DNA of 64,000 bases from Pelomonas sp. BJYL3 (GTDB lineage: Bacteria; Pseudomonadota; Gammaproteobacteria; Burkholderiales; Burkholderiaceae_C): contig NZ_JANZKX010000003.1 in NCBI RefSeq assembly GCF_027257975.1, positions 248,001-312,000 of the forward strand, read 5' to 3'. This document shows, in pieces, positions 5,144-23,826 of the stretch. The notes beneath the pieces are model-generated. The model saw only the letters and a list, made by a program, of their open reading frames with translations, did no database searches and was not told the origin of the DNA. Position 1 is the first letter of the stretch, and the number at the start of each line of letters is the position of its first letter. The translations under genes and the position numbers were made by a program.

Positions 5144-5146
5144 GCC

Positions 5147-7663: not shown

Positions 7664-7666
7664 GGC

Positions 7667-8728
7667 ATGGCGACGATTGCCTTCATCGGATCCGCCGGCA
7701 TCCCCAACCGCTACGGCGGCTTCGAGTCCTTCGCCGAGCACTGCACGCCCGCCATGGTGGCGGCCGGGCATGAGGTCATCGTCACCTGCGACGCCCGCCT
7801 CTACCCCGACCGCGCGCCCGACTTCAACGGCGTACGCCGACTCTTCCTGGACACGCCAGCCAATGGCGCGGCCTCGGTGCTGCACGACCTCTTTGCCTTC
7901 TTCAAGGTCTTCCTGCGCAGCAGCCACATCGTGGTCCTGGGCGTCTCGGGCGGCCTGTGGTTCCCGCTGTTCCGCCTGCTGTGCGGGCTGTCGGGCAAGC
8001 GGCTGCTGGTGAATGTGGACGGCATCGAGTGGCGGCGAGACAAGTTCAGCCCCCGCAAGCGGCGCCTGCTCAAGGTGCTGGACAGCCTGGCCCAGCGCTT
8101 CGCCCACCGCATCATCTACGACAACGAAGGCCTTGCGCCCTTCCTCGTTCCCAGCTGCCGCGGCAAGTCGCATTGCATCGCCTATTCGGGCGACCACGTC
8201 CTGCGCGTGCCCGGCACCGCCGTCGAGCCGGGCACGGCCCTGACCGTGTGCCGCATCGAGCCGGAGAACCAGCTGGAGCTGATGATCGAGGGCTTCCTCG
8301 CCTCGCCGCTGCAGCGCTACACCCTCATCGGCAACTGGAACCACAGCCCCTATGCACGCCAGCTGCGCGCCCGCTATGCCCACGAGCCGCGGCTCGCCCT
8401 GCTCGACCCCATCTACGACCCGCACGCACTGGCTCAGCACCGCGAGCGCTGCGCTGTGTACCTGCACGGCCACAGCGTGGGTGGCACCAACCCCTCGCTG
8501 GTGGAGATGCTGTTCTATGACTGCGAGCTGCTGTGCTTTGACGTCAGCTTCAACCGCCACACGGCCCAGGACTGCGCCCGCTTTTTCGCAGACGCGCCTG
8601 CGCTGACCGCGCTGCTGCGCCAGCCTCGCCCACCCGAGGCCGGCCGCCAGGCCCTGCGCCGGGCGTACAGTGCGCAGCACATCGCCGGCCTGTACCTGCA
8701 GCAGATCCTGCACGGTCAGTCCGCCTGA
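7667..8728 (+). CDS. DUF1972-type glycosyltransferase (rhamnosyltransferase-like)
   Basis: 353 residues starting MATIAFIGSAGIPNRYGGFE, the signature opening of the DUF1972 N-terminal domain, which is found fused to GT4 donor domains in capsule and O-antigen loci; members have been annotated as rhamnosyl- or galactosyltransferases. The second half shows ALTVCRIEPENQLELMIEGFL (donor-domain start) and HGHSVGGTNPSLVEML, the canonical donor-site motif of this subfamily. The protein is about normal length. It follows the preceding transferase by 3 nt and is separated from the FkbM gene by 38 nt. Substrate cannot be read from sequence. Confidence 0.88.
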   Translation: MATIAFIGSAGIPNRYGGFESFAEHCTPAMVAAGHEVIVTCDARLYPDRAPDFNGVRRLFLDTPANGAASVLHDLFAFFKVFLRSSHIVVLGVSGGLWFPLFRLLCGLSGKRLLVNVDGIEWRRDKFSPRKRRLLKVLDSLAQRFAHRIIYDNEGLAPFLVPSCRGKSHCIAYSGDHVLRVPGTAVEPGTALTVCRIEPENQLELMIEGFLASPLQRYTLIGNWNHSPYARQLRARYAHEPRLALLDPIYDPHALAQHRERCAVYLHGHSVGGTNPSLVEMLFYDCELLCFDVSFNRHTAQDCARFFADAPALTALLRQPRPPEAGRQALRRAYSAQHIAGLYLQQILHGQSA

Positions 8729-8766
8729 GATCGCGGCCTGTTGCCCTCCACCCGCACCTCCACCGC

Positions 8767-9585
8767 ATGATGAAGATCAAACGTCTGTTGACCGCCCTGC
8801 AGAGGCGGCTGTCACGCCTGACGGACTGGCGGCTCGTGCGCTGGAACCGGCTGGCCAGCCACCAGCAGCGCTGGTATCTGCGGCGTTTCCTGAAGTGGCA
8901 ACCCATCGACCTGGTCCTCGACGTGGGCGGCAATGCCGGGCAATTCGCCCAGCTGGTCCGCGCGGCCGGCTACCAGGGCTGGATCATCAGCTTCGAACCC
9001 CTGCCCGACATGGCGGCGCAGCTGCGCCGCCTCGCCGAGGCCGACGGCCGCTGGCAGGTGGTCGAGAAGGCCCTGGGCGAGCAGCCCGGGCGGGCCAGCC
9101 TGCAGGTCACCAGCACCTCGCCGATGAGTTCCCTGCTGGAGCCCGTGCAGGATCCCAGCAGCGCGATGGCGCAGTTCAGCGAGGTGAGGCGCCGCCTGGA
9201 CGTCGAGCTGATCACCCTGGACGACTTCCTCCGCGAGGATCCCCGGGCCCAGGCGGCACAGTCCATCTACCTCAAGCTGGATGTGCAGGGCTTCGAGATG
9301 CCCGTGCTCAACGGCGCGCGCCGCAGCCTGGGCAAGGTCGCGGCCATCCAGGCGGAGCTGGGCGTCGCCACCGTTTACCATGGGCAGACGCAGTACCGCG
9401 AGCTGCTGGCCTGGCTGCACGAGGCGGGCTACGTGCCCTCCCTGTTCACGGCGCATGACTACGAGCTCTTCCCCGAAATGATCGACTTCGACGCCCACTT
9501 CGTCCGCGCCGACATCCTGGCCGCCTCGCTGCAGGCCCGCCAGGCCCAACGTGCCGCCGCGGGTCTGCGCCAGCTGGACGCCTGA
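8767..9585 (+). CDS. FkbM family methyltransferase
   Basis: 272 residues. The SAM-binding Rossmann motif DVGGNAGQFAQ (about residues 53-63), the acidic post-strand II element SFEPLPDM and the family-typical LKLDVQGFEMPVLNGA (about residues 175-190) are present in order, which defines FkbM O-methyltransferases. In polysaccharide loci such enzymes methylate a sugar hydroxyl, sometimes as a chain-ending cap. It is the last gene of the glycan block: only 3 nt separate its stop from the ATG of gspF, so the secretion genes are almost certainly co-transcribed with it. An ATG-ATG start leaves one residue of uncertainty. Confidence 0.9.
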   Translation: MMKIKRLLTALQRRLSRLTDWRLVRWNRLASHQQRWYLRRFLKWQPIDLVLDVGGNAGQFAQLVRAAGYQGWIISFEPLPDMAAQLRRLAEADGRWQVVEKALGEQPGRASLQVTSTSPMSSLLEPVQDPSSAMAQFSEVRRRLDVELITLDDFLREDPRAQAAQSIYLKLDVQGFEMPVLNGARRSLGKVAAIQAELGVATVYHGQTQYRELLAWLHEAGYVPSLFTAHDYELFPEMIDFDAHFVRADILAASLQARQAQRAAAGLRQLDA

Positions 9586-9588
9586 GCC

Positions 9589-10806
9589 ATGGCCTTCGAC
9601 TACACCGCCATCGACGCTGACGGCCGCCAGCTCAGCGGCACCCTGCCGCAAGACAGCGAGCCGGAGGCCCTGGCCGAGCTGAACAGGCAAGGCCTGACCC
9701 CCATCCGCCTGGACCGCAGCCGCGCCAAGGCCCCGGGCTCGGGTGCGCGCCGCCAGAAGAAGATCCCCCCCGGTGTGGCCGCCGTGCTCTTCATCCGCGA
9801 GCTGGCCTCCCTGCTGCAGGCGGGGGTGACGCTGGAGGAGTCGCTGCGCACGCTGCTGGAAGGCCGCAAGGGCTCGGCCCAGGAGACCGTGCTGACGGCC
9901 ATCCTGTCCGACGTCCTGGCGGGCGAGCGCTTCTCCAGTGCGCTGCGCACGCACGCGGCGCCCGGCAGCCTGCCGCTGCCGAACTTCGTGCTGGCCCTGG
10001 TGTCCGCCGGCGAGTCCACCGGTGACCTGCCCGCCGCGCTGGGCCGCGCCGCCGACCAGATGGAATTCGACGACCAGATCCGAGCCGAGACCTCCGAGGC
10101 CCTGGTCTACCCCGCCATCCTGATCATGGCGGGCGCCGCCGCCGTGCTCTTCGTCTTCTCCTTCGTGGTACCGCGCTTCTCCACCCTGCTGGCCGGCAAG
10201 CGGGCGGACCTGCCCTGGCTGTCCGCGGCGGTGATGAGCACCGGCGAGTTCGTCAACCAGCACAGCGTCGCGCTGCTGATGGCCGCCGCTGCCCTGGTCG
10301 CGGGCGGCCTGGCACTGCGCAAGGCACTGGGGCCCGAGCGCATCCGCAGTGCGGCCGCCGAGCTGCCGGTGATCGGCCCCTGGCTGCAGCAGCAGGAGCT
10401 GTCCCGCTGGACCGGCATGCTGGCCCTCATGCTGCAGAGCCGGGTGCCCATCCTGACCTCGCTGGACCTCACGGCCGCCGCCGTGTCCCTGCCCGAGGTC
10501 GCGACCAAGCTGCGCCAGACCCTGGCTGACATCGGCCGCGGCGAAAGCATCTCCAGCTCACTCTCGGAGCGCGGATTGCTCCCGCCCAGTGCGCTGAGCA
10601 TGGTGCGCGTCGGCGAGCGCACCGGCCAGCTGGGCCAGATGATGGGCCATGTGGCGGCCTACGCCCTGGAGCAGAACCGCCGGCAGCGTCGCCGCCTGGT
10701 GGCGCTGATCGAGCCGGCGGCAATTCTGGTGCTGGGCGGTATCATCGCGCTCGTCATCGTGGGGGTGGTGCTGGCCCTCACATCCCTGTCCGAGGTCAAG
10801 TTCTGA
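9589..10806 (+). CDS. gspF: Type II secretion system inner-membrane protein GspF
   Basis: 405 residues, the standard GspF/PilC length. The N-terminal ~65 residues (FDYTAIDADGRQLSGTLPQD) form the cytoplasmic lead domain; two T2SSF domains follow, each ending in hydrophobic helices: around IMAGAAAVLFVFSFVVPRFS (about residues 180-200), then VALLMAAAALVAGGLAL, and finally the C-terminal LVLGGIIALVIVGVVLALTSL. The conserved FIRELASLLQAGVTLEESL and LALVSAGESTGDL elements are present in domain 1, and RVGERTGQLGQMM in domain 2. GspF is the polytopic platform protein that contacts the GspE ATPase and GspL. It opens a compact F-to-D gene run; gspE is displaced to 20603. Confidence 0.97.
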   Translation: MAFDYTAIDADGRQLSGTLPQDSEPEALAELNRQGLTPIRLDRSRAKAPGSGARRQKKIPPGVAAVLFIRELASLLQAGVTLEESLRTLLEGRKGSAQETVLTAILSDVLAGERFSSALRTHAAPGSLPLPNFVLALVSAGESTGDLPAALGRAADQMEFDDQIRAETSEALVYPAILIMAGAAAVLFVFSFVVPRFSTLLAGKRADLPWLSAAVMSTGEFVNQHSVALLMAAAALVAGGLALRKALGPERIRSAAAELPVIGPWLQQQELSRWTGMLALMLQSRVPILTSLDLTAAAVSLPEVATKLRQTLADIGRGESISSSLSERGLLPPSALSMVRVGERTGQLGQMMGHVAAYALEQNRRQRRRLVALIEPAAILVLGGIIALVIVGVVLALTSLSEVKF

Positions 10807-10808
10807 AC

Positions 10809-11267
10809 ATGCGTAGCTCCCGTCACCCGTCGCGTTCGCGCGGCTTCACGCTTCTCGAAATGCTGGTGGTGCTGGTCATCATCGGCCTGATCGCCGGCCT
10901 GGTCGGGCCCCGCCTGTTCGCCAAAGTGGATTCCTCCAAGGTGCAGACGGCGGGCGTGCAGATCAAGCTGCTGCGCGGCGCCATCGAGTCCATGCGCCTG
11001 GATCTGGGGGCCTATCCCACGGCCGAGCAGGGCCTGGACCTGCTGGTCACCGCCCCAACCGACGCCAAGCTGCGCGAACGCTGGAAGGGCCCCTACCTGG
11101 ACGAGGCGGTGCCCGCCGATCCCTGGGGCAACCCCTACCAGTACCGCATTCCCGGCGAGGACGGCCGGCCCTTCTCCATCGTCTCCCTGGGCGCCGATGG
11201 CAAGCCCGGCGGTGAAGGCAACGACGCCGACATCGGGCTTGGCAAGCGTGGTGAAGCGGGCAACTGA
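10809..11267 (+). CDS. gspG: Type II secretion system major pseudopilin GspG
   Basis: 152 residues, normal for GspG. A short basic leader (RSSRHPSRSRG) precedes the prepilin cleavage site G/FTLLEMLVVLVIIGLIAGLVGP, with the essential Glu at position +5. Downstream are the GspG landmarks TAEQGLDLLV, WKGPYLDEAVPADPWGNPYQY and FSIVSLGADGKPGGEGNDADI, the last being the calcium-binding acidic loop region. The protein forms the shaft of the periplasmic pseudopilus after processing by the prepilin peptidase, which is not encoded in the window. It starts 2 nt after the gspF stop, and the next pseudopilin overlaps its 3' end. Confidence 0.98.
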   Translation: MRSSRHPSRSRGFTLLEMLVVLVIIGLIAGLVGPRLFAKVDSSKVQTAGVQIKLLRGAIESMRLDLGAYPTAEQGLDLLVTAPTDAKLRERWKGPYLDEAVPADPWGNPYQYRIPGEDGRPFSIVSLGADGKPGGEGNDADIGLGKRGEAGN

Positions 11268-11712
11268 GCGGCAGGTTCGCGCTCCCGCCGGACTCTCTGC
11301 ATCCCGGGGCTTCACCCTGCTGGAGGTGGTGATCGCCTTGAGCATCATCGGCCTGCTGACGGCCGTGGCCGTCCCTGCGCTGGCCAAGCGGCTGGAGTCC
11401 GCCTTCGAATCCGCCGACCTGGCCCAGGTGCGCAGCAGCGCCGAGCTGCTGTCCACGCGTCTGGCCACGCTGGGCGTCGAGCTGCGGCTGGACGCCAAGT
11501 CCCAGGCCCGCCTCCTCCCCGACGGCCGCCCGCCCCTGGATCTGCCTCCCGGGTGGACCCTGGACAGCAAGGCCCCGCCCGTCTTCGGCCGCCTGGGCGC
11601 CTGCGAACCGGGCGAGGTGCAGATCAGAGATCCGCGTTCCCAGCGCCAGTGGCGCCTCCAGTTCGCCGCCATCAGCTGCACCGCCAGCTTCGCCGCCACC
11701 GAGTTCCAATGA
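11251..11712 (+). CDS. gspH: Type II secretion system minor pseudopilin, GspH position
   Basis: About 153 residues with a leader ending ASRG/FTLLEVVIALSIIGLLTAVAV, including Glu +5, so it is a class III prepilin-type protein. The body is short and divergent with two cysteines (LGACEPGEV and ISCTAS) that could pair. The name GspH rests mainly on its place between gspG and gspI. GTG codons at 11248 and 11251, both overlapping the end of gspG by less than 20 nt, give a leader of normal length; an ATG at 11197 would force a 71-nt overlap and an unusually long leader. The 3' end overlaps the next start by 4 nt. Confidence 0.82.
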   Translation: MKRATERQVRAPAGLSASRGFTLLEVVIALSIIGLLTAVAVPALAKRLESAFESADLAQVRSSAELLSTRLATLGVELRLDAKSQARLLPDGRPPLDLPPGWTLDSKAPPVFGRLGACEPGEVQIRDPRSQRQWRLQFAAISCTASFAATEFQ

Positions 11713-12155
11713 CCCACACGCAGCAGCGGGGCATCTCCCTGATCGAGGTCATCGTGGCCCTGGTCGTCATCTCGGGCTTCGGCGCCGCCCTGTTCGTGTG
11801 GGCGGGGCAGACGCTGAAGACGGCGAGCCGGGCGATGGCGGTGCTGGATGAGATCGCGCTGGAGAGCAATATCACGGAGTTTGCGGTGAGCCTGAATCCC
11901 GCCGTAGCCGGGCAGGGCCGCATGGACCTGGGCAGCCAGGTCTACGAATGGAGCTCGAAGCTTGAGCGCGACCCTGCAGACCATGTGCGCCACCCCGCCG
12001 GTATCAGCCCCTACCAGGTCTCTGTCTATGCGGTGAAGGTGCGCGTGCTGGACAAGCAGAGCGGTCGCCTGCTCGGCCAGGGCGAACGCCGGGTAGCCGG
12101 CTACAAGCAGGTGCGGGTGCGCCCATCGGGCCCACCCGGCTTCAACACGCCATGA
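11709..12155 (+). CDS. gspI: Type II secretion system minor pseudopilin GspI
   Basis: 148 residues. A very short leader (MTHTQQRG) is followed by ISLIEVIVALVVISGFGAALFVWAGQ, a prepilin N-methylation site with Glu +5 and the hydrophobic stem helix. The rest matches the size and character of GspI, which with GspJ and GspK forms the tip complex of the pseudopilus. The start ATG overlaps the upstream TGA by 4 nt (ATGA), and its own stop overlaps gspJ the same way, showing strict translational coupling. Assignment as I rather than another minor pseudopilin follows gene order and size. Confidence 0.88.
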   Translation: MTHTQQRGISLIEVIVALVVISGFGAALFVWAGQTLKTASRAMAVLDEIALESNITEFAVSLNPAVAGQGRMDLGSQVYEWSSKLERDPADHVRHPAGISPYQVSVYAVKVRVLDKQSGRLLGQGERRVAGYKQVRVRPSGPPGFNTP

Positions 12156-12802
12156 AACCCTTGCGCACCAGGCGGCGGGACCGCGGACTGTCCTTGCTGG
12201 AGGTGATGGTCACCGTCGCCATCTTCGCCATGCTCTTCGGCGTGCTGATGGCCGGCTGGCATCAATCCATGAAGGCGCAGACGCAGCTGAGCAGCGCCGC
12301 GGACGCCATCCAGCGCCGGCAGCACCTCAACACCCTGCTGCGTCAGGTCGTCGCGGAAGCCATCAACCCCGGCTACCAGAGCGGGCTCAAGTTCATGGGC
12401 AGCAACACCGGTTTCGCGATGGAATCGACGACCTCCCTGTTGCCTTCCATCGGCAATGCGCCGGTGGACATGGAGCTCAAGCTGGTGACCGGCCCGGAGG
12501 GCGCGCGGCTCAATGTCACCCACCAGGGGCAGGCCGGCGCCGCCTTCGATTGGGTATTCGACCGCTTCGATGTGCGCTATGTGGATCATGCAGGCGCCCT
12601 GCACGAGGCCTGGCCGCCGGCCCGTCGCAGCGACCGCCCGGTCTCGACCACGACCGACACCGAGCAGTTGCCCGCCCTCCTGGTCTTCGCCTACCGCTTG
12701 CGCGGCGAGAGCACGGAGCAGCTCCTGCTGGCCGCCCCGCGCAATTCCGCCTGGGAATTGGCGGAACCGTCCACTCCCTTGACCGGCATGGGGCTGCAAT
12801 GA
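12152..12802 (+). CDS. gspJ: Type II secretion system minor pseudopilin GspJ
   Basis: 216 residues, typical for GspJ (about 200). The leader KPLRTRRRDRG precedes LSLLEVMVTVAIFAMLFGVLMAG, a class III prepilin signal with Glu +5. The downstream region AQTQLSSAADAIQRRQHLNTLLRQV is the amphipathic stem helix, and the C-terminal half is beta-rich as expected for the tip protein. It is coupled by ATGA overlaps to the preceding and following genes. The family is recognised by position, length and leader rather than strong internal motifs. Confidence 0.88.
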   Translation: MKPLRTRRRDRGLSLLEVMVTVAIFAMLFGVLMAGWHQSMKAQTQLSSAADAIQRRQHLNTLLRQVVAEAINPGYQSGLKFMGSNTGFAMESTTSLLPSIGNAPVDMELKLVTGPEGARLNVTHQGQAGAAFDWVFDRFDVRYVDHAGALHEAWPPARRSDRPVSTTTDTEQLPALLVFAYRLRGESTEQLLLAAPRNSAWELAEPSTPLTGMGLQ

Positions 12803-13794
12803 AGCAGGACCAGGGCTTTGTGCTGCCTGTCACCGTCATCATGCTAGCCCTGGTCAGCGTGGGCATCGCGCTGATGTCGCATCGCAGCGACGAGACCCGG
12901 GCGCTGGTGATCGAGGCCCGCGAGGAGCAGAAGGCGGTGCAGCTGGTGGAGCGGACCCGAGCCGAGGCGCTGTACCTCAGCAGCGCCCTGTACCGCCGCC
13001 TCGACAGCCTGGGCACCATCAAGCTGGACGGCCGCTTCTACCGCACCGAGGACGGCGTGATGGTCAGCTACCAGGACGGCGGATCGCTCTTCAACCTGCG
13101 TCGCGCGCGGCGTGACGAGCTGCTTCATCTGTTCCAGGCCGTGGGCTTCACCGATGGCCTGCAGATGGACCAGCTCGCCGATCGCCTGCTGGACTACACC
13201 GACACGGATGATCTCCAGCACATCAACGGCGCCGAACGCCCGGACTACCAGCAGGCCCGAATGCCCGTGCCCCGCAACGAAAGGCTGGCCACGCCCTCCG
13301 AGCTGCAGCGCCTGCTGGGCTGGAAAGATCTGCCCGAGGGGCCCAGGCAGGCCTTGCTGGACCATGTCTATATCGGCCCCCAGCGCACGGTCAACCGCTA
13401 CACCGTGACGGCACCGGTGCTGTCCGCCATCAGCGGGATGGACCCTGCCGCCGCGCAGCAGCTGGTCGACCAGCGAATTCCTGGTACGCCGGTGCGAATA
13501 GAATCCGCCATCTCGCAGACAGGCGGCAGCTACCTGGCCGAAGGGCGTTACATCATCGTGCCTTCGTCCACGCTGCTGGTCAGGATCTGCGTGCCAGGCC
13601 GGGCCTGGTGCCAGCACCTGAGCATGACCAGCACCGGAGAAAGTCCGAACGGTCCCTGGCATGCGGACTACGGCTACCGGCTCCCGCGTACGAAGGACCT
13701 GCCTCCCGCCAAGGATGTGGAGGCGCTGCCCAACCAGTTGCCGGACAAGCCGCCACCGCCCCTGTATTCACCCTTTGCCAACAGCCTCCCGTGA
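12799..13794 (+). CDS. gspK: Type II secretion system minor pseudopilin GspK
   Basis: 331 residues, the long pseudopilin at the pseudopilus tip. The N-terminus KQDQG/FVLPVTVIMLALVSVGIALM is a prepilin-like leader in which position +5 is Val, not Glu; absence of Glu +5 is a known trait of GspK. The middle contains FYRTEDGVMVSYQDGGSLFNLRRA and QMDQLADRLLDYTDTDD, matching the GspK pattern of a DGGSLFNLN-like strand followed by a saposin-like helical domain. An ATG at 12799 overlapping the previous TGA is chosen; a longer upstream reading would lack a leader peptide. The next gene starts with GTG inside its stop codon. Confidence 0.92.
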   Translation: MKQDQGFVLPVTVIMLALVSVGIALMSHRSDETRALVIEAREEQKAVQLVERTRAEALYLSSALYRRLDSLGTIKLDGRFYRTEDGVMVSYQDGGSLFNLRRARRDELLHLFQAVGFTDGLQMDQLADRLLDYTDTDDLQHINGAERPDYQQARMPVPRNERLATPSELQRLLGWKDLPEGPRQALLDHVYIGPQRTVNRYTVTAPVLSAISGMDPAAAQQLVDQRIPGTPVRIESAISQTGGSYLAEGRYIIVPSSTLLVRICVPGRAWCQHLSMTSTGESPNGPWHADYGYRLPRTKDLPPAKDVEALPNQLPDKPPPPLYSPFANSLP

Positions 13795-14933
13795 GCCTAC
13801 AGATCTCCGACCTCTGGCCCTCCAGGCGCCAGCCCGCAGAGCCGGTCGCCCGCGCCAGGCTGCAGGCCCTGCGCCTGAAGCTGCCCGGCCTCAAGCGCGC
13901 GCAGCAGCTGGCGGCGGTGCGCCTGCAGCTGCTGAGCTTCTACCCGAAGGGCCACTTCGCCTTCGCCTGGCGGGAACTTGCGCCAGGCGATGTCTCGGTC
14001 TGGGCCTGGGCGCTGGAAGACAAGGACGGCACCGCTCGCCGCCCGAGCCAGCAATGGCCCGAGACCCTGCTGGAGTCCGACGGCAACGGCCTGCACCTGC
14101 TGCAGCGCCAGCCCGGTTTCGAAGGCCAGCACTGGGCTGATGGCCAGCTCCAGAGCAGCCAGTGGTGGCCGCATCTGCCCTCCGAGGCCGAGTGGGCCCG
14201 CTTCGCCCGGGCCACCGGCCATGACGCGGACGAGCAGCCCCGTCCCACCCCCAGGCAGCGCACGCAGCAGGCTGAGCCACCCCGGCAATGGCTGCGCGGC
14301 GACAACCTCCCCAAGCCTGATCCCTGGCAGGGCTGGCACTGGCAGGCCGCCCTGCTGGTACTGGGCATGGCGATCAGCGCCGCCCTGGGCATCCACCTGC
14401 AGACCCGCAGCCAGCTCGAGCACGACAGGCAGCTGCTCGCGGATCTGCGCAAGCAGCGCGAGACCTCGCTGTCGCAACGCTCCCAGTACGAGCAGCTGCG
14501 CGAGGACCATGAGGCCCTGCTGAGCCTGGCCCCCCAGCTGACCCAGCTGGAGCTGCTGGACCGCGTGATCAGCAGCGGCGTGCTGGCCGTGCCCGTCACC
14601 CAGGCCGGACTGGCTTCGCAGGCCAGCGCCACGGCAGCGCCCACGGCGGGCAATGCCTTCACGGCGCCGGCACCGGGCGCCGTCCCGGCGACCGTTCCCA
14701 CGCCGGTCCTGGCCGAATGGGACTACCGCAATGCCCAGCTCAAGATGACGCTGGACATCCCCGAAGGTGACATCGCGATGCTGGACACCACCCGCCGCAT
14801 CGAGCAGCTGGCCAATATCTCCGGGCTGAAGATCGGCCTGGAGTCCAGCAACAACAGCCTGACCCTGAGCATGCGGGTGGACGACGCCAAGCCTGCGAAA
14901 TCCGGCGGCACCGCAGCCGCCAGCAAACCATGA
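13791..14933 (+). CDS. gspL: Type II secretion system assembly-platform protein, GspL/PilN-like
   Basis: 380 residues, starting GTG at 13791 within the gspK stop (GTGA). A cytoplasmic N-terminal part of about 180 residues, Gln/Pro-rich towards its end, precedes one membrane helix (HWQAALLVLGMAISAALGI, about residues 183-201). A charged coiled-coil (LEHDRQLLADLRKQRETSLSQRSQYEQLREDHEALL) and a periplasmic ferredoxin-like domain follow, the layout of GspL with a PilN-like C-terminus. The N-terminal half shows no obvious actin-like ATPase motifs, so the gspL call relies on topology and place between gspK and gspM. In other systems GspL links the GspE ATPase to GspM. Confidence 0.78.
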   Translation: MSLQISDLWPSRRQPAEPVARARLQALRLKLPGLKRAQQLAAVRLQLLSFYPKGHFAFAWRELAPGDVSVWAWALEDKDGTARRPSQQWPETLLESDGNGLHLLQRQPGFEGQHWADGQLQSSQWWPHLPSEAEWARFARATGHDADEQPRPTPRQRTQQAEPPRQWLRGDNLPKPDPWQGWHWQAALLVLGMAISAALGIHLQTRSQLEHDRQLLADLRKQRETSLSQRSQYEQLREDHEALLSLAPQLTQLELLDRVISSGVLAVPVTQAGLASQASATAAPTAGNAFTAPAPGAVPATVPTPVLAEWDYRNAQLKMTLDIPEGDIAMLDTTRRIEQLANISGLKIGLESSNNSLTLSMRVDDAKPAKSGGTAAASKP

Positions 14934-15589
14934 CCGCCCTCTCCCGCGCCTGGCAGCAGCTGCGCCAGCAGAAACTGGACAAACGCGTCCTGTGGCTCCT
15001 CGCCGCGGGCGCGCTCACCGTGGCCGGCGAGCTCTCGCTGCGCGCCTGGGACGCCCACCAGAAGCTCGCCGCCGAACTCAAGACCGTGCGCGGCAGGGTC
15101 CAGCTGCTGCAGAGCTCCGCTGACAAGATCGACTGGGCCCAGCGCACTCAGGCCCTCGGCGCGGCGCACGAAGCGCTGCAAGGCCAGCTGTGGCACGCCC
15201 CCAGCGAGGCCCAGGGTCAGGCCATGCTGCGGGACTGGCTCAGCAGCGTGCTCAAGGACGAGAGTCTCAAGCGGGTCAGCATCGCGCTGCAGCCCCCTGT
15301 AGCGGCCGCCGCCTCTGCCCTGAACCCCGACAAGGACAAGGACGCGTCACCCGCCCAGGCCGGAAAGGGTCTGCGCCTGGCGATGCAGGCCATCCGCGTG
15401 CGCGCCACGGTGACTTTCGAGCTGGCACCCGGCGCCATGGAAACTGCGCTCCAGCGAATCGAGCGCGGCGGCCAGCTGGCCAGCGTAGACACCCTCACCG
15501 CCTCCCGACGCAGTCGCCGGGTGGAGCTGACCGTGTCCCTGCCCGTGATCGTCGATGCCGCGCCGAGCGGCGCGAGCCAGAAGCCATGA
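14930..15589 (+). CDS. gspM: Type II secretion system assembly-platform protein, GspM-like
   Basis: 219 residues. A short cytoplasmic start (TALSRAWQQLRQQKLDKR) leads into one membrane helix (VLWLLAAGALTVAGELSL, about residues 20-37), a predicted coiled-coil (AHQKLAAELKTVRGRVQLLQ) and a periplasmic alpha/beta domain. This bitopic layout, the length and the place directly after gspL fit GspM, the partner of GspL in the inner-membrane platform. Primary sequence conservation in this family is weak. Overlap with both neighbours is 4 nt. Confidence 0.8.
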   Translation: MTALSRAWQQLRQQKLDKRVLWLLAAGALTVAGELSLRAWDAHQKLAAELKTVRGRVQLLQSSADKIDWAQRTQALGAAHEALQGQLWHAPSEAQGQAMLRDWLSSVLKDESLKRVSIALQPPVAAAASALNPDKDKDASPAQAGKGLRLAMQAIRVRATVTFELAPGAMETALQRIERGGQLASVDTLTASRRSRRVELTVSLPVIVDAAPSGASQKP

Positions 15590-16056
15590 ACATCGCCCTA
15601 AGAATCCTCATCGCCCTGCTCTGCTGCAGCCTGGCAGGCGCACTGGGCTGGCAGCTGGGCCGGCCGGCCGCGCTGGCCGGCCGCGCCGCGCCTGCCGAGG
15701 CCGGCGAGGCGCTGGAACAGAAGGTCCTCGGCAGCCTGGACGATGACGACACCCTGTCCCGCCGCATCAGCGCCGCCGACCCCTTCGGCCTGACCCGCAA
15801 TGCGCCGCTGGCCGCCCAGCCGGGTGCAGCGGCGGCCAGCGCCGGTGGCGACCTGATCACCTGGCGCCTGGGCGCCCTGGTGGTCCGCGGCCCCGAGCGC
15901 TACCTGGTGCTGACCGCCGCGGGCCAGAAGCCCCTCAAGTTGAATGTGGGCGACAAGCTGCCGGACGGCGACAAAGTCAAGGCCATTGAACCCACCCATG
16001 CCGTGATTCAAGGCGCCCGCGGCAAGACCCGAACGATTTACCTGACCGAGCCATGA
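15586..16056 (+). CDS. Type II secretion GspC-like protein without PDZ domain (GspN/XpsN position)
   Basis: 156 residues. One N-terminal membrane helix (ALRILIALLCCSLAGALGWQLG) is followed by an Ala-rich linker, the segment ISAADPFGLTR and an HR-like domain (ITWRLGALVVRGPERYLVLTAAGQKPLKLNVGDKLPDGDKVKAIEPTH-like, about residues 85-155). In GspC the HR domain contacts the N0 domain of the secretin. The protein ends right after this domain and lacks the C-terminal PDZ or coiled-coil region, as in the short GspC-like proteins encoded immediately before gspD in some Xanthomonas-type systems. Gene order (M, this gene, D) supports the role as inner-to-outer membrane connector. Confidence 0.78.
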   Translation: MNIALRILIALLCCSLAGALGWQLGRPAALAGRAAPAEAGEALEQKVLGSLDDDDTLSRRISAADPFGLTRNAPLAAQPGAAAASAGGDLITWRLGALVVRGPERYLVLTAAGQKPLKLNVGDKLPDGDKVKAIEPTHAVIQGARGKTRTIYLTEP

Positions 16057-18512
16057 TCCAAACCCCTGCCCCGCTTTTCGCTCCGGCCCGCCTGGCCAGG
16101 CCCCTGATCGTGGCCGCGGTGTCCGCGCTGTGCGGCTGCACGCATTGGTCGCCCACCATCCTGCCGGACCGTCCGGCCGAGGCCCTGCCCAAGGCGCCGG
16201 GCAATGCGCAGCCGCTGCCCCCCGTGGCCGCCGCACCCAGCGCTGCGGCCAGCGACGCGGATGGCGGCAAACCAGCCACGCGCAGTACAGGCACCAACCG
16301 CCTGTTCCAGACGCCGCCCATGCCTGCGGCCGAGCGCAATGCAACCAGCGCCCCGGCGCCCTCCGTGAGCGGCGGCGCCGAGCAGGAAAGCGCAGTGGCG
16401 CTGGACCAGATGCCGCTGCCACTCTTCATCGAGACGGTCTACACCACCATTCTCAAGAAGAACCTGTCCATGGACCCGGCGATTGCACAGCGCAAGGAGC
16501 TGGTGTCGCTGAAGTCCGGCAAACCGCTGTCCGCCACGGCGTTGTCGCAGACGGCGCGGGGCGTGCTGAAGTCCTACGGCCTGACCGTCACCGAATTCGA
16601 CGGCCTGGTCCGAATTACGCCCACCAACGGCAACACAGGCTACTTGCCCGAGCTGATGCGCGGGCGCAGCCTGCCCGACGTGCCGGCGAGCTTGCGGCCC
16701 ATCTTTTTCCTGGCGGAGATGAGCAGCGTCTCGCCCACCAATGTGTCGTCCTGGTTGCGCACCCTGTTTGGCCAGCGCGTCAATGTGCAGGAAGATGTCG
16801 CGCGTCAGGCCGTACTGCTGAGCGGCTCGTCCGACGACATCGCCGCCGCGCTGGAGGCCATCGACGTCCTGGACCAGCCCATGATGCGCGGGCGCGTCAG
16901 TGCGCGTGTAGCCCCTCTGTTCTGGTCGGCTGACGAGTTGGCCAAGCGCTTGTCCGAAGTACTCCAGGCCCAGGGCTACAACGTAGGGACCAGCGCGGGG
17001 GCGCAAGCACCTCTGGTTCTCCTGCCCATCGGGCCCTTGAATTCGGTCATCGTCTTTGCCGCCGACGACGGTGTCCTGAACCATGCCCTGCGCTGGGCCA
17101 CCGAGCTCGACCAGCCGGCCAGCGGCCGAGGCACGGCGGGCTACTTCACCTACCCCGTGCGCAATATGGACGCCGCGGATCTGGCCAAGACGCTGCAGGA
17201 TGTGATGAACCCAGCGGGCGCGACGAACAACGCCAATGCCGTCCGTTCACGGGTGGTGGTCAACGCACCCACCAACACCCTGATCATCCAAGGCAACCCA
17301 ACCGAGTATCAGCAGTGGTTCGGGCTCCTCCAGGAGCTGGATCGCCCTGCACGCACGGCGCTGATCTCCGTGACCATTGCCGAAGTCCGTCTGACCAATA
17401 CAGAGCAGATGGGCTTCGACTGGCTCCTGCGGCAATTCACTGTGGGCGGCTTCAACGTCAATCTGCGAAACAAGACCGGCCAGTCGGATACGGCCGGCAA
17501 CTTCGTGGCCACGATCAAGAGCAACGGCAGCAGCACCAATGCCCTGCTCAACGCCCTCGCCGCCACCAACAAGGCCCGCATCCTGGCCAACCCCAGCGTC
17601 ATGGCCCGCAACGGCGAACAGGCCTCGATCCAGGTGGGCCAGGATGTGCCCATCATCACCCAGCAACAGCAGGGCGTCGGCTCCACCTCCACGGTCCCGG
17701 GCGGCGTGGCCCAGCAGAACATCCTGCAGACCATCCAGTACCGCAACACAGGCGTGATCCTGAAAGTGAAGCCTGTCATTCACGCCGGCGGACGCATCGA
17801 CGTGGACGTGGACCAGGAAGTCAGCACGGTGCTCAAGACATCGGTGGGCGTCACCAGCACACCCACCATCCAGAACCGCAAGCTCAGCACCAAGCTGTCA
17901 GTCAGCGACGGCACCACGGTGCTGCTAGGCGGCCTTATGCAGGAAGAGAACAAGCTGGATGACTCGGGCGTGCCTTGGCTCAAGGACATCCCGTTGGCCG
18001 GCCATCTGTTCAAGAATTCCACCGATACCCGGGACCGCACCGAACTCGTGATCTTGATCACACCCTATGTGATTTCCAATGAGTTCGAGGCCCAGGCCAT
18101 CACCGAAGCCTTCCGCAATCAATTCCGCTGGGACTCCACGGGCAGCGGTCAGAAGCTGCGTACGCCACAGGAGCAAGCGGCCCCGCAAGCCCCTGTCGAT
18201 GGCAGCTTGTCAAATGATCCAAATCAAATCCCGGCAAAGCCTTATGTGCTTCCGGCACCTGACGTCAAGCAGCAGCCGCTGAGCGAGCGTCAAAAACCCC
18301 GTCAATCCGTCGTCAGGAAGCAACAAAACCCTCCGGACTTTCCCCTGGAACCAAGCGTTACATCACCAGGCGCGGCGGCATCGAATAACGTTGCGGGGCA
18401 GGGTTCCGCGATCGGTGCCCCGACCGGCAAGAACAAGCTGGGCGACGGCAAGACCGTGGAAGATCCACAGATACTGAAGGAGCTTATGGATGCATTGAAC
18501 AAAAAGCGTTGA
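16053..18512 (+). CDS. gspD: Type II secretion system outer-membrane secretin GspD
   Basis: 819 residues. The N-terminus has a hydrophobic stretch ending SALCGCTHWSP; the cysteines make a lipoprotein signal possible though the lipobox is not ideal. After an Ala/Pro-rich linker come the N0 domain (about residues 125-190) and N1-N3 ring domains. The secretin domain is unmistakable: NPSVMARNGEQASIQVGQDVP, then VKPVIHAGGRIDVDVDQEVS and DGTTVLLGGLMQEE, with the terminal LAGHLFKNSTDTRDRTELVILITPYVI. The last 110 residues are a polar, Pro/Gln-rich tail with more A/T-rich codons, probably an S-domain-like or disordered extension. No gspS pilotin gene is seen nearby. It closes the compact F-to-D operon. 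Confidence 0.97.
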   Translation: MIQTPAPLFAPARLARPLIVAAVSALCGCTHWSPTILPDRPAEALPKAPGNAQPLPPVAAAPSAAASDADGGKPATRSTGTNRLFQTPPMPAAERNATSAPAPSVSGGAEQESAVALDQMPLPLFIETVYTTILKKNLSMDPAIAQRKELVSLKSGKPLSATALSQTARGVLKSYGLTVTEFDGLVRITPTNGNTGYLPELMRGRSLPDVPASLRPIFFLAEMSSVSPTNVSSWLRTLFGQRVNVQEDVARQAVLLSGSSDDIAAALEAIDVLDQPMMRGRVSARVAPLFWSADELAKRLSEVLQAQGYNVGTSAGAQAPLVLLPIGPLNSVIVFAADDGVLNHALRWATELDQPASGRGTAGYFTYPVRNMDAADLAKTLQDVMNPAGATNNANAVRSRVVVNAPTNTLIIQGNPTEYQQWFGLLQELDRPARTALISVTIAEVRLTNTEQMGFDWLLRQFTVGGFNVNLRNKTGQSDTAGNFVATIKSNGSSTNALLNALAATNKARILANPSVMARNGEQASIQVGQDVPIITQQQQGVGSTSTVPGGVAQQNILQTIQYRNTGVILKVKPVIHAGGRIDVDVDQEVSTVLKTSVGVTSTPTIQNRKLSTKLSVSDGTTVLLGGLMQEENKLDDSGVPWLKDIPLAGHLFKNSTDTRDRTELVILITPYVISNEFEAQAITEAFRNQFRWDSTGSGQKLRTPQEQAAPQAPVDGSLSNDPNQIPAKPYVLPAPDVKQQPLSERQKPRQSVVRKQQNPPDFPLEPSVTSPGAAASNNVAGQGSAIGAPTGKNKLGDGKTVEDPQILKELMDALNKKR

Positions 18513-18639
18513 CCCAGCCCCTAGCTTCAAGGCGTTGCAACGCTGATCGAAGCCAACCGTAAGTCGTTCCGTGGGCCCCAGGCCCGACCTTCAGTAGGTC
18601 CCAAGCAACAAAACCTCAAAAGCCACGCCGATACACCGA

Positions 18640-18667
18640 TTGCGGCCCATAAATGAATGGGTATACT
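18640..18667 (+). promoter_or_regulatory. Probable sigma-70 promoter of the 572-residue secreted protein gene
   Basis: TTGCGG (18640-18645) and TATACT (18662-18667) are separated by 16 nt, close to the sigma-70 consensus. This would give a leader of about 100 nt before the ATG at 18776, which has a strong Shine-Dalgarno (GAGGAA, 18765-18770). Two short hairpins without T-runs (GGGCC/GGCCC at 18573-18585, GACCT/AGGTC at 18586-18600) lie between gspD and this promoter; no clear terminator was found there. Confidence 0.55.
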
Positions 18668-18775
18668 GCGCCCCAGCTGTCACATCAACCACTGGTGCAG
18701 CGGCCGCTGGAAGCAACATCAGTGCACCGGCGTGCTTGTTGAGGTGTCAACTTCATACAATCTCGAGGAAATTCA

Positions 18776-20494
18776 ATGAAACAAAAGCTTCTTTCTGCAC
18801 TGCTGATGAGCGCTTTCGCTGGCGTGGCCACCACCGCTAGCGCTGGTGTGATCCAGGCTTCCTACAAGAACTTCGCTGCAGAAGCCTTCGGTGCGGACAT
18901 CTCCATGGTGGCCCCCACCATCGGTTACTCGCTGGCCCTGCCCCTGACCGGTACCGCCAGCAACCCGAACAGCTTCGTGGTGACCTACACCCTGACGGCT
19001 GGTGAGTGGGATGCCGCCGACAAGCCGGGCGCCACCCTGGTCAGCACCAACAATGCTGACTTCCTGGATGCTGCTGCTGGCGTCATCGACCCGACCGACA
19101 AGCGCAAGATCACGTTCTCGTTCACTCTGAACAACGGCGTGACCTTCCCCACCGGCTCGACGATCGTGCTGGGCACCAACAACGTCGCTGGTTCCGTGAA
19201 CCAGCCCGTTGGCGGTCCTCCCGCTGTCGTGGCTGACGAAGTCACCCAGGGTAACGGCAAGATCAAGAAGGTCTACACCACCCTGCAAGTGCCGGCCCTG
19301 ACCGCGAACTATTGCAACCCGACCACCGCTGAAATCGGCGTGTCGATCAAGCTGACGAACGCTGCTGGCGTCGAATTCGACTCCAATTTCTCCAGCGCTC
19401 CTCTGAAGAACGACACCCCGATCCTGCAGTCGGGCGTGGCCACCAAGTCGGTCATCACCCCCAGCAGCGCGTTCGCCACTGCCGCCACTCGCGAATCGTC
19501 GCGCGTTGACGTGCTGGTGGGCTCGCTGGGCATGCTCTTCACCGCTTCGGAAGAAGGCGTTGCTGACGTTACCGACGCCACCGCTCCGGTCAAGCAAGTG
19601 CTGAATGTGGGCTCCGTTGAAATCGCTGACCGCGCAGCTCTGTACGACACCGACGGCGTCAAGATCTACGGCGTGGCTACCGGCTTCGACGCTACTGACG
19701 TCGCTGCTGACGGCAAGATCTCGCAGAACGGCCTGACCTTCAAGCTGGCTGGCAACTTCGTTGCTGGTGGCCTGGTCACGCTGAACAGCGCAGCTAACTG
19801 CGCTGCCGGTACTGATCTGGACACCGCCGCGAACACCACCACCTTCAACGCTGGTCTGACCGAAGCCACCATCGCTATCGATGCAGCTCACCTGGCCAAC
19901 AACAAGAAGGTCTACGTGTGCTACACCGTGCCTGGCGACGCCGTGATCCCGGTTTCCCAGTTCGCTGTGACCAGCGGCACGCTGGCTCGTGGTACCGCTT
20001 CGAAGGAACTGGCTACCCCGATCTGCCCGGCCAATATGTACAACCTGACCGCCAATGGCGTTCGCGTGGATGTGCGTAACTACATCCCCGCAATCGTCGA
20101 GGCTCCGTCTGGTGGCTGGAAGAACGTGATTCGGGTGATCAACACCGACGAATCGCAGCCGTCCGTCGATGTGTACGGTACCGCTCTGCTGCGTAGCGGC
20201 AAGCTGGGCGCCACCGCCGTCATCGCTGCCGGCATGAAGCCCCGTGAAGTGCGTTACCTGTCGGGTGCGACTATCGACGCCAAGCTGAACGCCGCGGCTA
20301 CCGCCGCCAAGCCGACCTTCGGCGCTGACGACATCGATGCCAACGCTCGCCTGCGCATCACCGCTGCTGCTTCGTCGATCCGCGTGCAGAACTACCACTT
20401 CAACCCGGCCACCGGCAACTACCTGGAAGCTTCCGCTGCCCAGGGTGACGAGGGTCCGGACTACGTGCGTGCTCGCGATCGCGACAACAAGTAA
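18776..20494 (+). CDS. Abundant secreted protein of unknown family; candidate T2SS substrate / surface-layer protein
   Basis: 572 residues with a clean Sec signal peptide (MKQKLLSALLMSAFAGVATTASA, cleavage after residue 23). The mature part is rich in Ala, Thr, Val, Asp and Asn, lacks membrane helices and looks beta-rich; four cysteines (180, 342, 382, 417) could form two disulfides. A C-terminal region from about residue 425 (VRVDVRNYIPAIVEAPSGGWKNVIRVINTDE ... RVQNYHFNPATGNYLEAS) looks like a separate beta-sandwich. Codon use departs from all neighbours: many GCT, GGT and GTT codons, as in very highly expressed genes. It has its own promoter, a strong ribosome site and a strong terminator. 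Lying between gspD and gspE, with glycan operons on both sides, it is the best local candidate for the main cargo. Function is inferred, not recognised. Confidence 0.75.
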   Translation: MKQKLLSALLMSAFAGVATTASAGVIQASYKNFAAEAFGADISMVAPTIGYSLALPLTGTASNPNSFVVTYTLTAGEWDAADKPGATLVSTNNADFLDAAAGVIDPTDKRKITFSFTLNNGVTFPTGSTIVLGTNNVAGSVNQPVGGPPAVVADEVTQGNGKIKKVYTTLQVPALTANYCNPTTAEIGVSIKLTNAAGVEFDSNFSSAPLKNDTPILQSGVATKSVITPSSAFATAATRESSRVDVLVGSLGMLFTASEEGVADVTDATAPVKQVLNVGSVEIADRAALYDTDGVKIYGVATGFDATDVAADGKISQNGLTFKLAGNFVAGGLVTLNSAANCAAGTDLDTAANTTTFNAGLTEATIAIDAAHLANNKKVYVCYTVPGDAVIPVSQFAVTSGTLARGTASKELATPICPANMYNLTANGVRVDVRNYIPAIVEAPSGGWKNVIRVINTDESQPSVDVYGTALLRSGKLGATAVIAAGMKPREVRYLSGATIDAKLNAAATAAKPTFGADDIDANARLRITAAASSIRVQNYHFNPATGNYLEASAAQGDEGPDYVRARDRDNK

Positions 20495-20510
20495 TCTGCT
20501 TCGGTAGATT
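20493..20510 (+). other. First UUCG-capped hairpin at the 3' end of the secreted-protein gene
   Basis: AATCTGC (20493-20499) pairs with GTAGATT (20504-20510), including one G-T pair, around a TTCG loop. It starts within the stop codon TAA and has no T-run. It sits 7 nt before the main terminator hairpin and may protect the 3' end of the transcript. Confidence 0.6.
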
Positions 20511-20517
20511 GCTGTAC

Positions 20518-20547
20518 AAAGCGGGGGTTTCGACCCCCGCTTTTTTT
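20518..20547 (+). terminator. Strong intrinsic terminator, second UUCG-capped hairpin
   Basis: AAAGCGGGGGT (20518-20528) and ACCCCCGCTTT (20533-20543) form an 11-bp perfect stem around a TTCG tetraloop, followed by T residues to 20547. The position just after the secreted-protein gene separates its transcript from gspE. Confidence 0.92.
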
Positions 20548-20602: not shown

Positions 20603-22294
20603 ATGAAGATCGGCCAACTCCTGATCCAGAAGCAACTGCTCGATGACACCGGCCTGGCCCAGGCCCTGACCGAGCAGTCCCGCAGCCCGACGCCGCAAAA
20701 GCTGGGGGCCATCCTGGTCAGGCTGGGCCTGGTCTCCGAGGCCAGCCTGTACCAGGCACTGTCCGAGCAGCTGAACCTCCCACTGTGGTCGCACGACCCT
20801 GAGCACATCGCCCTCGCCCGCATGGCCCTGGAAGCCTCCAGAGCCCTCCCAGCGGCCCTGGCCAAGCGCTGGCAGGCCTTTGCCTATCCCTCGCCGGACG
20901 GCGCCTCCTGGCAGCTCATTGCCCGCGATCCGCTGCAGCCCGAGCTGGCCGAGTACACCCAGCGCCTGGCGGGCCCCCTGCCCCTGGCTTTGAAGCTGGC
21001 CAGCAACCAGGACCTCAGCGCCGCGCTGGAGCAGCTGTACGCCACCAAGCCGGCCGGCAGCTACAACCTCAGCACGGACCTCCGGCAGCTGGCGCAGGAC
21101 GCGCCCATCGTCGAATTCGTGGCCACCATGCTCTCGCGGGGGACGGACCAGAACGCCTCCGACATCCACGTGGAGCCCACCGAACAGGGCTTCGTGGTGC
21201 GCTACCGCGTCGACGGCCATCTGCGCGCCACCGAGACCCATGGCCGCGAACGCTTCGACGCCGTGGTCAGCCGCATCAAGCTGGTCAGCGGCCTGGACAT
21301 CGCCGAGCGCCGCCTGCCCCAGGACGGCCGCTTCTCCACCCGCGCGGCCGGCATCGACACCGAGATCCGCGTTTCCGTGATCCCCGGCGTGCATGGCGAA
21401 TCCATCGTCATGCGCCTGCTGCCCAAGACGGCTCACCGCCGCTTCAAGCTAGAGGCCCTGGGCTTCGAGCCCGACCACCTGGCCGCCCTGCAGGCCAGCC
21501 TGCAGGAACCCGACGGCATCATCCTGGTGACGGGCCCCACGGGCTCCGGCAAGAGCACCACGCTCTACGCCGCCCTCGCCGCCACGGACACCGACAGCAC
21601 CCGCGTGCTGACCGTTGAGGATCCCGTCGAATACCAGCTGCCCGGCATCACCCAGTTCCAGGTGCAGTCGGACATCGGCTTCACCTTCCCGGCGGCTCTG
21701 CGCGCCATCCTGCGCCACGACCCGGACACCATCATGATTGGTGAAATCCGGGATCCCGAGACCGCCGGCATCGCCATCCAGGCCTCGCTGACGGGCCACA
21801 AGGTGCTCTCCACCCTGCACACCAACGACGCGCCCTCGGCCTTCGTGCGCCTGATCGACATCGGCGTGGAACCCTTCCTGCTGGCGGCCAGCGTGCGAAC
21901 GGTCATCGCGCAGCGCCTGATCCGGCGCCTGTGCCCGCATTGCGCCCGCAGCCTCCCGCAAGTGGAGCTGGGTGATCAGATGACGGCCATGGCCCGGCGC
22001 CTGCACCTGGACGCCGGCGAGCCTTATCTGGGCCGTCAGGCCATGGGCTGCGAGCAATGCAGCGGCACGGGCTATCGGGGCCGCGTGGCCGTGCACGAGG
22101 TGCTCAGCGTGACGCCCGAACTGCGCCACCAGCTGACCGCTCCTGGCCTGTCCGACCAGATGATCCGGGAACGTGCGCCGGCCAACTTCCGTACACTTCA
22201 GGAAGACGCGCTGCTGAAATTTTGGCGAGGCGATACCAGTCTGGCCGAGGTGCTGTCGCTGGCAGGTACCCATGCGATGGCGGATATCAGCTGA
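20603..22294 (+). CDS. gspE: Type II secretion system ATPase GspE
   Basis: 563 residues. An N-terminal MshEN/T2SSE_N domain (about residues 1-140: KIGQLLIQKQLLDDTGLAQALTEQ, LGAILVRLGLVSEASLYQALSEQL) precedes the ATPase core. Visible motifs are the Walker A GPTGSGKST (311-319), the Asp box region LTVEDPVEYQ, the Walker B-like MIGEIRDPETA and the His box TGHKVLSTLHTNDA. A tetracysteine zinc element (LCPHC ... GCEQC, about residues 440-495) lies between the His box and the C-terminal domain, characteristic of GspE/PilB. The hexameric ATPase drives pseudopilus growth through GspF/GspL. It is separated from the F-to-D operon by the secreted-protein gene and its terminator, so it probably has its own promoter, not identified. 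Confidence 0.97.
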   Translation: MKIGQLLIQKQLLDDTGLAQALTEQSRSPTPQKLGAILVRLGLVSEASLYQALSEQLNLPLWSHDPEHIALARMALEASRALPAALAKRWQAFAYPSPDGASWQLIARDPLQPELAEYTQRLAGPLPLALKLASNQDLSAALEQLYATKPAGSYNLSTDLRQLAQDAPIVEFVATMLSRGTDQNASDIHVEPTEQGFVVRYRVDGHLRATETHGRERFDAVVSRIKLVSGLDIAERRLPQDGRFSTRAAGIDTEIRVSVIPGVHGESIVMRLLPKTAHRRFKLEALGFEPDHLAALQASLQEPDGIILVTGPTGSGKSTTLYAALAATDTDSTRVLTVEDPVEYQLPGITQFQVQSDIGFTFPAALRAILRHDPDTIMIGEIRDPETAGIAIQASLTGHKVLSTLHTNDAPSAFVRLIDIGVEPFLLAASVRTVIAQRLIRRLCPHCARSLPQVELGDQMTAMARRLHLDAGEPYLGRQAMGCEQCSGTGYRGRVAVHEVLSVTPELRHQLTAPGLSDQMIRERAPANFRTLQEDALLKFWRGDTSLAEVLSLAGTHAMADIS

Positions 22295-23232: not shown

Positions 23233-23826
23233 TCAGCCGCTGATCGAGCGGACCGTGCGCCAGATGATGGCCAGATCCCGCGCCAGCGAGGCCTCGCGCA
23301 CATAGGCGCAGGACAGCGCCAGCTTGCGTGGCAGCAGCACCTCGACGTACGCGCGCTCGGGATCCGCCGCCGCGGCCAGCACGCTGCTCTCGTCACGGAA
23401 TTCCAGCGAGGCCGGATCGGTGATGCCCGGCCGCACGGAGAGCACCAGCTCGCGCAGCTCGGCTGGGTACAAGGCCACATAGCGCGGCACCTCGGGCCGG
23501 GGCCCGACCAGACTCATCGCGCCGCGCAGCACGTCCCACAGCTGAGGCAGTTCGTCCAGCTTGCTGCGCCGGATGAAGCGGCCGGAACGGGTAATGCGCG
23601 GGTCCTCGCCGATGGTGATCTGCGGCCCCAGCGCCGGCGCATCCACCCGCATGCTGCGGAACTTGTGGATGAAGAAGGGCCGGCCGAAGCGACCCACACG
23701 CTCCTGGCGGAACATCACCGGGCCGGGCGAATCCCACTTGATCCACAGCGCCACGCCCAGCAGCAGCGGGGACAGCAGCAACAGCCCCAGCGCGGAGGCC
23801 AGGATGTCGAAGAGGCGCTTGGCCAT
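23233..23826 (-). CDS. Monotopic phosphoglycosyl transferase (PglC-like sugar transferase)
   Basis: 197 residues, the size of the minimal PglC-type bacterial sugar transferases that start a glycan by moving a sugar-1-phosphate onto undecaprenyl phosphate. One N-terminal re-entrant/membrane helix (LFDILASALGLLLLSPLLLGVALWIKWDSPGP) is followed by the family motifs FRQERVGRFGRPFFIHKFRSMRVDA, DELPQLWDVLRGAMSLVGPRPE and VRPGITDPASLEFRDE. The Asp-Glu catalytic pair lies in DELPQL. It is the last gene of the - strand glycan operon, 17 nt after the aminotransferase gene, as in pgl-like arrangements where a 4-amino sugar is the first sugar. Confidence 0.93.
   Translation of the reverse strand: MAKRLFDILASALGLLLLSPLLLGVALWIKWDSPGPVMFRQERVGRFGRPFFIHKFRSMRVDAPALGPQITIGEDPRITRSGRFIRRSKLDELPQLWDVLRGAMSLVGPRPEVPRYVALYPAELRELVLSVRPGITDPASLEFRDESSVLAAAADPERAYVEVLLPRKLALSCAYVREASLARDLAIIWRTVRSISG

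Follow-up and report, generated by a model that had tools for sequence, protein, structure and literature searches.

Surface layer (S-layer) proteins whose genes adjoin those of a type II secretion system (T2SS) have been reported three times elsewhere (PMC10765051, PMC7821379, PMC4413209). Dedicated or proposed dedicated S-layer T2SS loci are thus in print for Aeromonas, Pseudoalteromonas and the bacteria that carry NpdA, and the general claim is already known. In Aeromonas, vapA and the sps T2SS genes lie within the O-antigen cluster (PMC4413209, PMC4483657), the A-layer is tethered by lipopolysaccharide (LPS; PMC4483657) and a vapA deletion mutant has no A-layer (PMC4413209, PMC4483657). 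NpdA is the S-layer protein of Paracidovorax citrulli and its gene stands beside 12 gsp genes; its authors leave a mutational analysis of this T2SS for later (PMC10765051). Slr4 of Pseudoalteromonas tunicata is described both as an S-layer protein and as a major matrix component (PMC7821379). Here, we describe a locus of this kind in Pelomonas sp. BJYL3, in a stretch of 64,000 nucleotides (contig NZ_JANZKX010000003.1, positions 248,001 to 312,000, forward strand), called the window below; coordinates are those of the window and negative ones lie upstream of it. We consider it likely that a 572-residue protein encoded within its T2SS gene set is an S-layer or S-layer-like subunit which is abundant, exported by its cognate T2SS and assembled on a surface glycan, and whose cassette is exchanged between bacteria as a block.

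The published Aeromonas gene order (spsE–M, orf2, spsD, vapA) resembles that of the window in that the T2SS set ends with D followed by the coat gene and in that surface-glycan genes accompany the set. It differs in the place of the ATPase gene, which lies 3′ of the coat gene in the window, whereas E leads the operon in Aeromonas; VapA (469 residues in strain AH-1, compared with 572 here) is likened to our protein by description, not by sequence. The NpdA S-layer or nanopod locus as described in Delftia, Acidovorax and Paracidovorax (PMC10765051) shares with the window a betaproteobacterial host, a signal peptide and a coat gene next to some 12 gsp genes. The set that we take to be NpdA-like (alignment A4), however, has no profile similarity to the window protein when signal peptides are removed (0.1%), and its GspE sits on another branch. 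The slr4 gene also adjoins a T2SS cluster, proposed to be dedicated (PMC7821379), but its host belongs to the Gammaproteobacteria and the likeness is again one of description rather than sequence. A 32-row profile of the window coat family matched two of 369 genomes of the class, namely the window’s own and, marginally (E = 8.8e-4), one of the 368 others. A more distant parallel is Clostridioides difficile, in which the coat is encoded in one cassette with secA2, a gene for secretion; this cassette is thought to recombine, and one type of it has an inserted glycan cluster (PMC6254364). It differs in being Gram-positive and in using accessory Sec secretion, whereas in the window a whole T2SS would be replaced.

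The candidate coat gene and its expression signals

An earlier note on this DNA, made from its letters alone, had placed a Sec-signalled protein of 572 residues between gspD and gspE. This is indeed the arrangement: the open reading frame is flanked by gspD (16053–18512) and gspE (20603–22294), recognized through TIGR02517 and TIGR02533, respectively. The gene and its signals are as follows.

18776..20494, forward strand: candidate S-layer protein gene; 572 residues, signal peptide about 1–23, mature protein about 56.3 kDa, isoelectric point 4.9
18640..18667, forward strand: promoter-like TTGCGG-16-TATACT; TTGC and TATACT invariant in seven of seven close orthologues, the window included
18674..18775, forward strand: conserved mRNA leader, start approximate; contains AGCTGTCACATC and TGCTTGTTGAG, both blocks invariant in seven of seven orthologues
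20518..20543, forward strand: intrinsic terminator 3′ of the coat gene; 11 pairs and a T run

The N-terminus reads MKQKLLSALLMSAFAGVATTASA up to the putative cleavage site and GV after it, a Sec-type signal peptide called by eye and not by a predictor. The note had recognized no family in the C-terminal region of the protein, and neither Pfam nor PDB sequence searches returned a match; a search of the plasmid collection was likewise empty, and NCBIfam gave a single irrelevant match (12.6 bits, the cut-off being 490). Profile searches of the PDB with coat alignments yielded nothing for A3 and A4 (NpdA-like) and one match with an E of 1.8 for A5.

Codon usage sets the gene apart, as the note had said of its GCT, GGT and GTT codons. 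Their share is 0.387, compared with a window mean of 0.048 and with 0.232 in 25 ribosomal-protein genes around rplB of the same genome (apart from L2, recognized from their order and N-termini and not through a family search). When codons are scored as log-odds of ribosomal versus background usage (genes of at least 100 codons, ribosomal genes scored leave-one-out), the coat gene reaches 0.292 and exceeds 20 of the 21 ribosomal genes, while the 58 other window genes of this length have a mean of −0.164 (standard deviation 0.058, maximum −0.031). The comparison with ribosomal genes proposed in the note thus comes out in its favour, in a form that the plain codon adaptation index (CAI) alone would not show. 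Of 32 loci, 30 have a GspE or GspD neighbour of the coat gene, and in all 30 the same share is higher in the coat gene than in this neighbour, as it is for 13 of 13 coat genes of a second family, B, introduced below. These values suggest that the protein is made in very large amounts.

The near-consensus promoter of the note stands only in part: a consensus scan upstream of the coat gene called none, and TTGCGG-16-TATACT agrees with eight of 12 consensus positions by manual count, but its TTGC and TATACT are the conserved elements listed above. The strong ribosome site is found as a Shine–Dalgarno GAGGA at 18765–18769, six bases 5′ of the ATG, and the strong terminator is likewise present. Among 146 loci, exact copies of AGCTGTCACATC and TGCTTGTTGAG are confined to these close orthologues, with one stray match of TGCTTGTTGAG besides (L102). 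The leader is kept as sequence in the orthologues, with no convincing fold: an Rfam search of it gave no match, and an RNA structure was rejected because folding is no better than that of shuffled sequences (z = −0.38) and covariation is thin (three of 21 pairs).

The secretion genes and the lineages they follow

The gene set runs from 9589 to 22294 in the order F-G-H-I-J-K-L-M-C-D-[coat]-E. The T2SS operon of the note is thus present, but it does not end at the coat gene and continues to gspE, which closes at 22294.

9589..10806, forward strand: gspF, inner-membrane platform; Pfam T2SSF E 1.1e-47; TIGR02120 E 5e-82, below its cut-off
10809..11267, forward strand: gspG, major pseudopilin; Pfam T2SSG E 5.1e-37
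11197..11712, forward strand: gspH-like minor pseudopilin; prepilin N-methylation motif and order; true start probably later than that of the open reading frame
11709..12155, forward strand: gspI-like minor pseudopilin; prepilin motif E 9.5e-05 and order
12152..12802, forward strand: gspJ-like minor pseudopilin; prepilin motif E 4.7e-07 and order
12799..13794, forward strand: gspK; Pfam T2SSK_1st E 2.5e-10
13791..14933, forward strand: gspL position, from order and conservation in relatives; no Pfam match
14930..15589, forward strand: gspM position, from order and conservation in relatives; no Pfam match
15586..16056, forward strand: gspC-like protein; Pfam T2SSC E 0.0038 over nearly the whole profile, below the curated cut-off
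16053..18512, forward strand: gspD, outer-membrane secretin; TIGR02517 E 9.3e-89, below its cut-off; Pfam Secretin E 1.7e-47
20603..22294, forward strand: gspE, ATPase; MshEN-type (c-di-GMP-binding) domain at the N-terminus; TIGR02533 E 1.5e-149, below its cut-off
22369..23172, forward strand: cassette-linked protein with a possible signal peptide, adjoining gspE; no Pfam match

With D, E, F, G and K assigned by clear families, H, I and J by motif, C by its sub-cut-off match and L and M by order and conservation, the set qualifies as a T2SS; since D, E and F fall below the NCBIfam equivalog cut-offs, it is a divergent one. Homologues of the last protein, 52–53% identical, were found at three of the 11 loci tried (L031, L032 and L047).

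The coat gene is linked to T2SS genes well beyond the window. A two-row coat profile searched against 399 genomes of the taxonomic family detected the coat family in 15 of them, its own included, and in 13 of 141 genera. Among 199 relatives of G206, the 32-row profile detected it in ten, all but one already among these genomes. Named genomes, when scanned, yielded 26 loci from Pelomonas, Mitsuaria, Undibacterium, Variovorax and Comamonas, among others, with several genomes repeating earlier ones. At 30 of the 32 distinct loci, the window included, at least one T2SS gene lies within the examined stretch, sometimes kilobases away, and the linkage persists across several gene orders. Of the remaining two, one is on a 3.6 kb contig in which GspE/GspD is matched in part, and in the other the gene is separated by only 67 bases from the end of its contig. 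Homologues that never lie near T2SS genes, which the note had named as a refutation, are thus not what related genomes hold.

The genome also contains a second gspD (C22:484944-486857), which scores 582 bits, over the family cut-off, compared with 294 bits for the window gspD. It is adjoined by a gspE, and the second set is known from this pair only.

We then asked which coats accompany other GspE lineages. The window GspE was searched against the 399 genomes and 40 stretches were hand-picked from the better full-length matches, mostly in genomes with no match to the window coat family. Family B occurs in 14 of these stretches, as 13 aligned proteins of 463–481 residues and one protein split over two stretches; the latter locus (L086) was first labelled by position, and a partial family B match, continued in L162, was found later. 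In the downstream stretches of 20 other loci, we found an NpdA-like family, C, as 15 proteins in 14 stretches and a partial protein in a fifteenth, with none in five. Family C was recognized from its position after gspD, its signal peptide and the size and mass of its proteins, no accession being used. For one member the mass computed from residue 26 onwards is 52,399 Da, compared with the 52,394 Da reported for NpdA of P. citrulli (PMC10765051), an agreement that is suggestive and falls short of an accession match. Given a partial NpdA-like match in L129, L113, which is unlabelled in the GspE tree, probably belongs to family C. One stretch (L128, 4948–8745) carries two tandem NpdA-like genes.

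Profile comparison with the signal peptides cut gave a probability of 92.5% over 152 columns for the window family against B, 0.1% for the window family against C and 0.5% for B against C, with reversed controls at or below 0.4%. The window family and B are thus probably distant kin, and C is without detectable relation to them. With the signal peptides kept, the window family reaches 66% against the NpdA-like family, confined to the N-terminal 89 columns. Membership of the window coat in the NpdA family was rejected on the 0.1% figure, which was obtained against this putative NpdA set. Family B (L082–L095), itself probably a distant relative of the window coat, adjoins a T2SS lineage of its own.

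The GspE tree has 64 rows, of which 52 carry a coat label (24 A, the window family, 14 B and 14 C); 12 were left uncounted (11 with no identified coat and one canonical). Two changes suffice for the three labels, which is the minimum possible, although the tree was made quickly and has some long branches, and close copies would cluster whatever the label. The window species and two of its congeners fall into three different GspE clades. Coat and GspE distances are correlated (Mantel test, r = 0.55, 24 loci, p = 0.0005), taken as they stand and with no correction for species phylogeny. On these sequence comparisons, the coat family tracks the GspE lineage.

The N-terminal domain of GspE scores 49.6 bits for NF053729 (cut-off 38) and 23.6 for Pfam MshEN (cut-off 23.1), so that export may respond to c-di-GMP. 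We scanned for the MshEN motif by pattern in GspE rows clipped to their match with the window GspE. The motif is present in the window GspE, in ten of 24 rows of the window coat family, 12 of 14 of B, eight of 14 of C, seven of 11 unlabelled rows and none of one canonical row (shuffled N-termini, 0 of 3200); clipped rows may lack their N-termini, and these counts are possibly low. As the motif is seen in only part of the members, c-di-GMP control need not hold family-wide. In the GspE of the congener G001 the motif was not found, though the N-terminus may be clipped.

Apparent replacement of the block at one chromosomal site

The genes around the cassette were compared with those of the two congeners G001 and G002. 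Two features mark the block and its border.

383..9585, forward strand: surface-glycan genes in the exchanged block; Pfam epimerase, glycosyltransferases and FkbM, three of eight genes with no Pfam match
23233..23826, reverse strand: sugar transferase gene at the block border; Pfam Bac_transf E 3.9e-58; 86–87% identical and in the same place in both congeners

Left of −2958 and right of 23233, the examined genes are collinear in both, mostly with 84–100% protein identity; lower values are seen for two genes on the left flank (68% and 75% in G001, 59% in G002). Within the block, identity to the congeners drops to 42–43% for GspD, 45–47% for GspE, 36% for GspF and 56–62% for GspG, and among the eight glycan genes (383–9585) only one has a counterpart in a congener, at 28% and in G002 only. 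The DNA follows the same pattern. Identity on the left flank is 90–92% in G001 and 86–92% in G002, except for one stretch of 72% at the edge, and that on the right flank is 91–96% in G001; for G002 the right flank gives 86%, in a match that stops at the limit of the compared stretch. Inside the block (pieces of at least 150 bases), wza/wzz at the left edge match at 65–71% and otherwise only fragments do, at 66–74%.

The replacement recurs elsewhere. In four further genera, cassettes of the window family and of family B share flanks with about 73–89% DNA identity (longer pieces): G079 with G190, G381 with G047 and with G321, G166 with G023, and G128 with G222, a pair for which a single flank is visible. 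Among five genomes compared, only G079, from another genus, shares the window cassette with all of its glycan genes. This pattern fits the exchange of a whole unit. Literature searches on the exchange of T2SS–coat cassettes found no paper, most subscription journals being outside their scope. New here are the coat family, its distinctness from the NpdA-like set and the repeated replacement of the block.

Proposed export, surface role and exchange of the coat

In the explanation that we propose, the coat protein would cross the inner membrane via Sec and would then be carried across the outer membrane by the cognate T2SS that surrounds its gene. It may assemble on a surface glycan, by analogy with the Aeromonas A-layer on LPS, although both the lattice and the glycan anchoring are conjectural, as is the choice of a surface layer over some other abundant coat. 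Together with the T2SS and some of the surface-glycan genes, the coat would form one cassette, which related bacteria would exchange as a block. The second gspD–gspE pair and the co-inheritance of coat and GspE argue for a dedicated export route and, together with the published precedents, lend support to the note’s suggestion that the coat is the main cargo. A broader idea, which we hold tentatively and slightly less readily than its opposite, is that an S-layer, the T2SS specific to it and some of the surface glycan make up a replaceable coat cassette at a constant chromosomal site, resembling an O-serotype locus, with c-di-GMP perhaps tuning export through the MshEN domain of GspE. The cassette would be replaceable as a unit because a given T2SS would export no coat but its own, and a given coat would fit its own glycan.

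Several observations weigh against our explanation. The S-layer role and the T2SS export are predictions from sequence, and linkage by itself is no proof that the adjoining T2SS exports the coat. The coat has no sequence match to any testable S-layer protein, the NpdA-like family included. The plain CAI of its gene (0.752) is close to the ribosomal mean (0.749) and gives a z of only 1.1 within the window. The congeneric pair G079/G267 does not share the DegT/LysS flanks. The reservations given above for the GspE tree and the Mantel test count on the same side, as does the structural comparison. An AlphaFold2 model based on an alignment of 32 relatives is a beta-rich chain (mean pLDDT 79.5, pTM 0.66). 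The structure-database search suggested in the note (Foldseek against the PDB) gave 36 matches at E ≤ 0.001, of which 23 are bacterial adhesins, pilins and biofilm proteins (manual count) and 13 are unrelated, mostly eukaryotic, beta-sandwich proteins. The query TM-score is at most 0.21 in all matches listed. With such scores and so many unrelated matches the fold is non-specific, and a structural identity by analogy was dropped.

The beta-rich model and these weak matches to adhesins, biofilm proteins and pilins would also suit an abundant non-crystalline surface or matrix protein (an adhesin, a fibril or a biofilm matrix component) exported by the same T2SS, and for Slr4 both roles are described, that of an S-layer protein and that of a major component of the matrix (PMC7821379). 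Since the protein adjoining the T2SS forms an S-layer in the similar published loci (VapA, NpdA and Slr4), we regard this as rather improbable. It seems much less probable still that the linkage is positional only, with the coat exported by the other T2SS or another route, or remaining in the periplasm or the outer membrane. The genome does contain a second gspD scoring over the family cut-off, and export by the window T2SS is a prediction, but the linkage is kept at 30 of 32 loci through several gene orders and the coat family follows the GspE lineage.

The blocks of the congeners could also differ because a surface-polysaccharide locus was replaced in the ordinary way, the T2SS and the coat being passengers. 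The variable stretch does take in the glycan genes up to wza/wzz; yet the site holds a different T2SS–coat set in each comparison, rather than a set that is present or absent. We find this account unlikely, though a good deal less so than the two others, and it is compatible with an S-layer-like coat exported by its cognate T2SS and exchanged as a block.

The locus adds one coat-protein family to those tied to T2SSs. It also provides natural swaps of a secretion machine together with its apparent main cargo between close relatives, in a nearly constant background, and such swaps make substrate recognition by the T2SS testable. The exchange of surface structures, known from O-antigens and from the S-layer cassette of C. 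difficile, would thereby extend to a whole secretion system.

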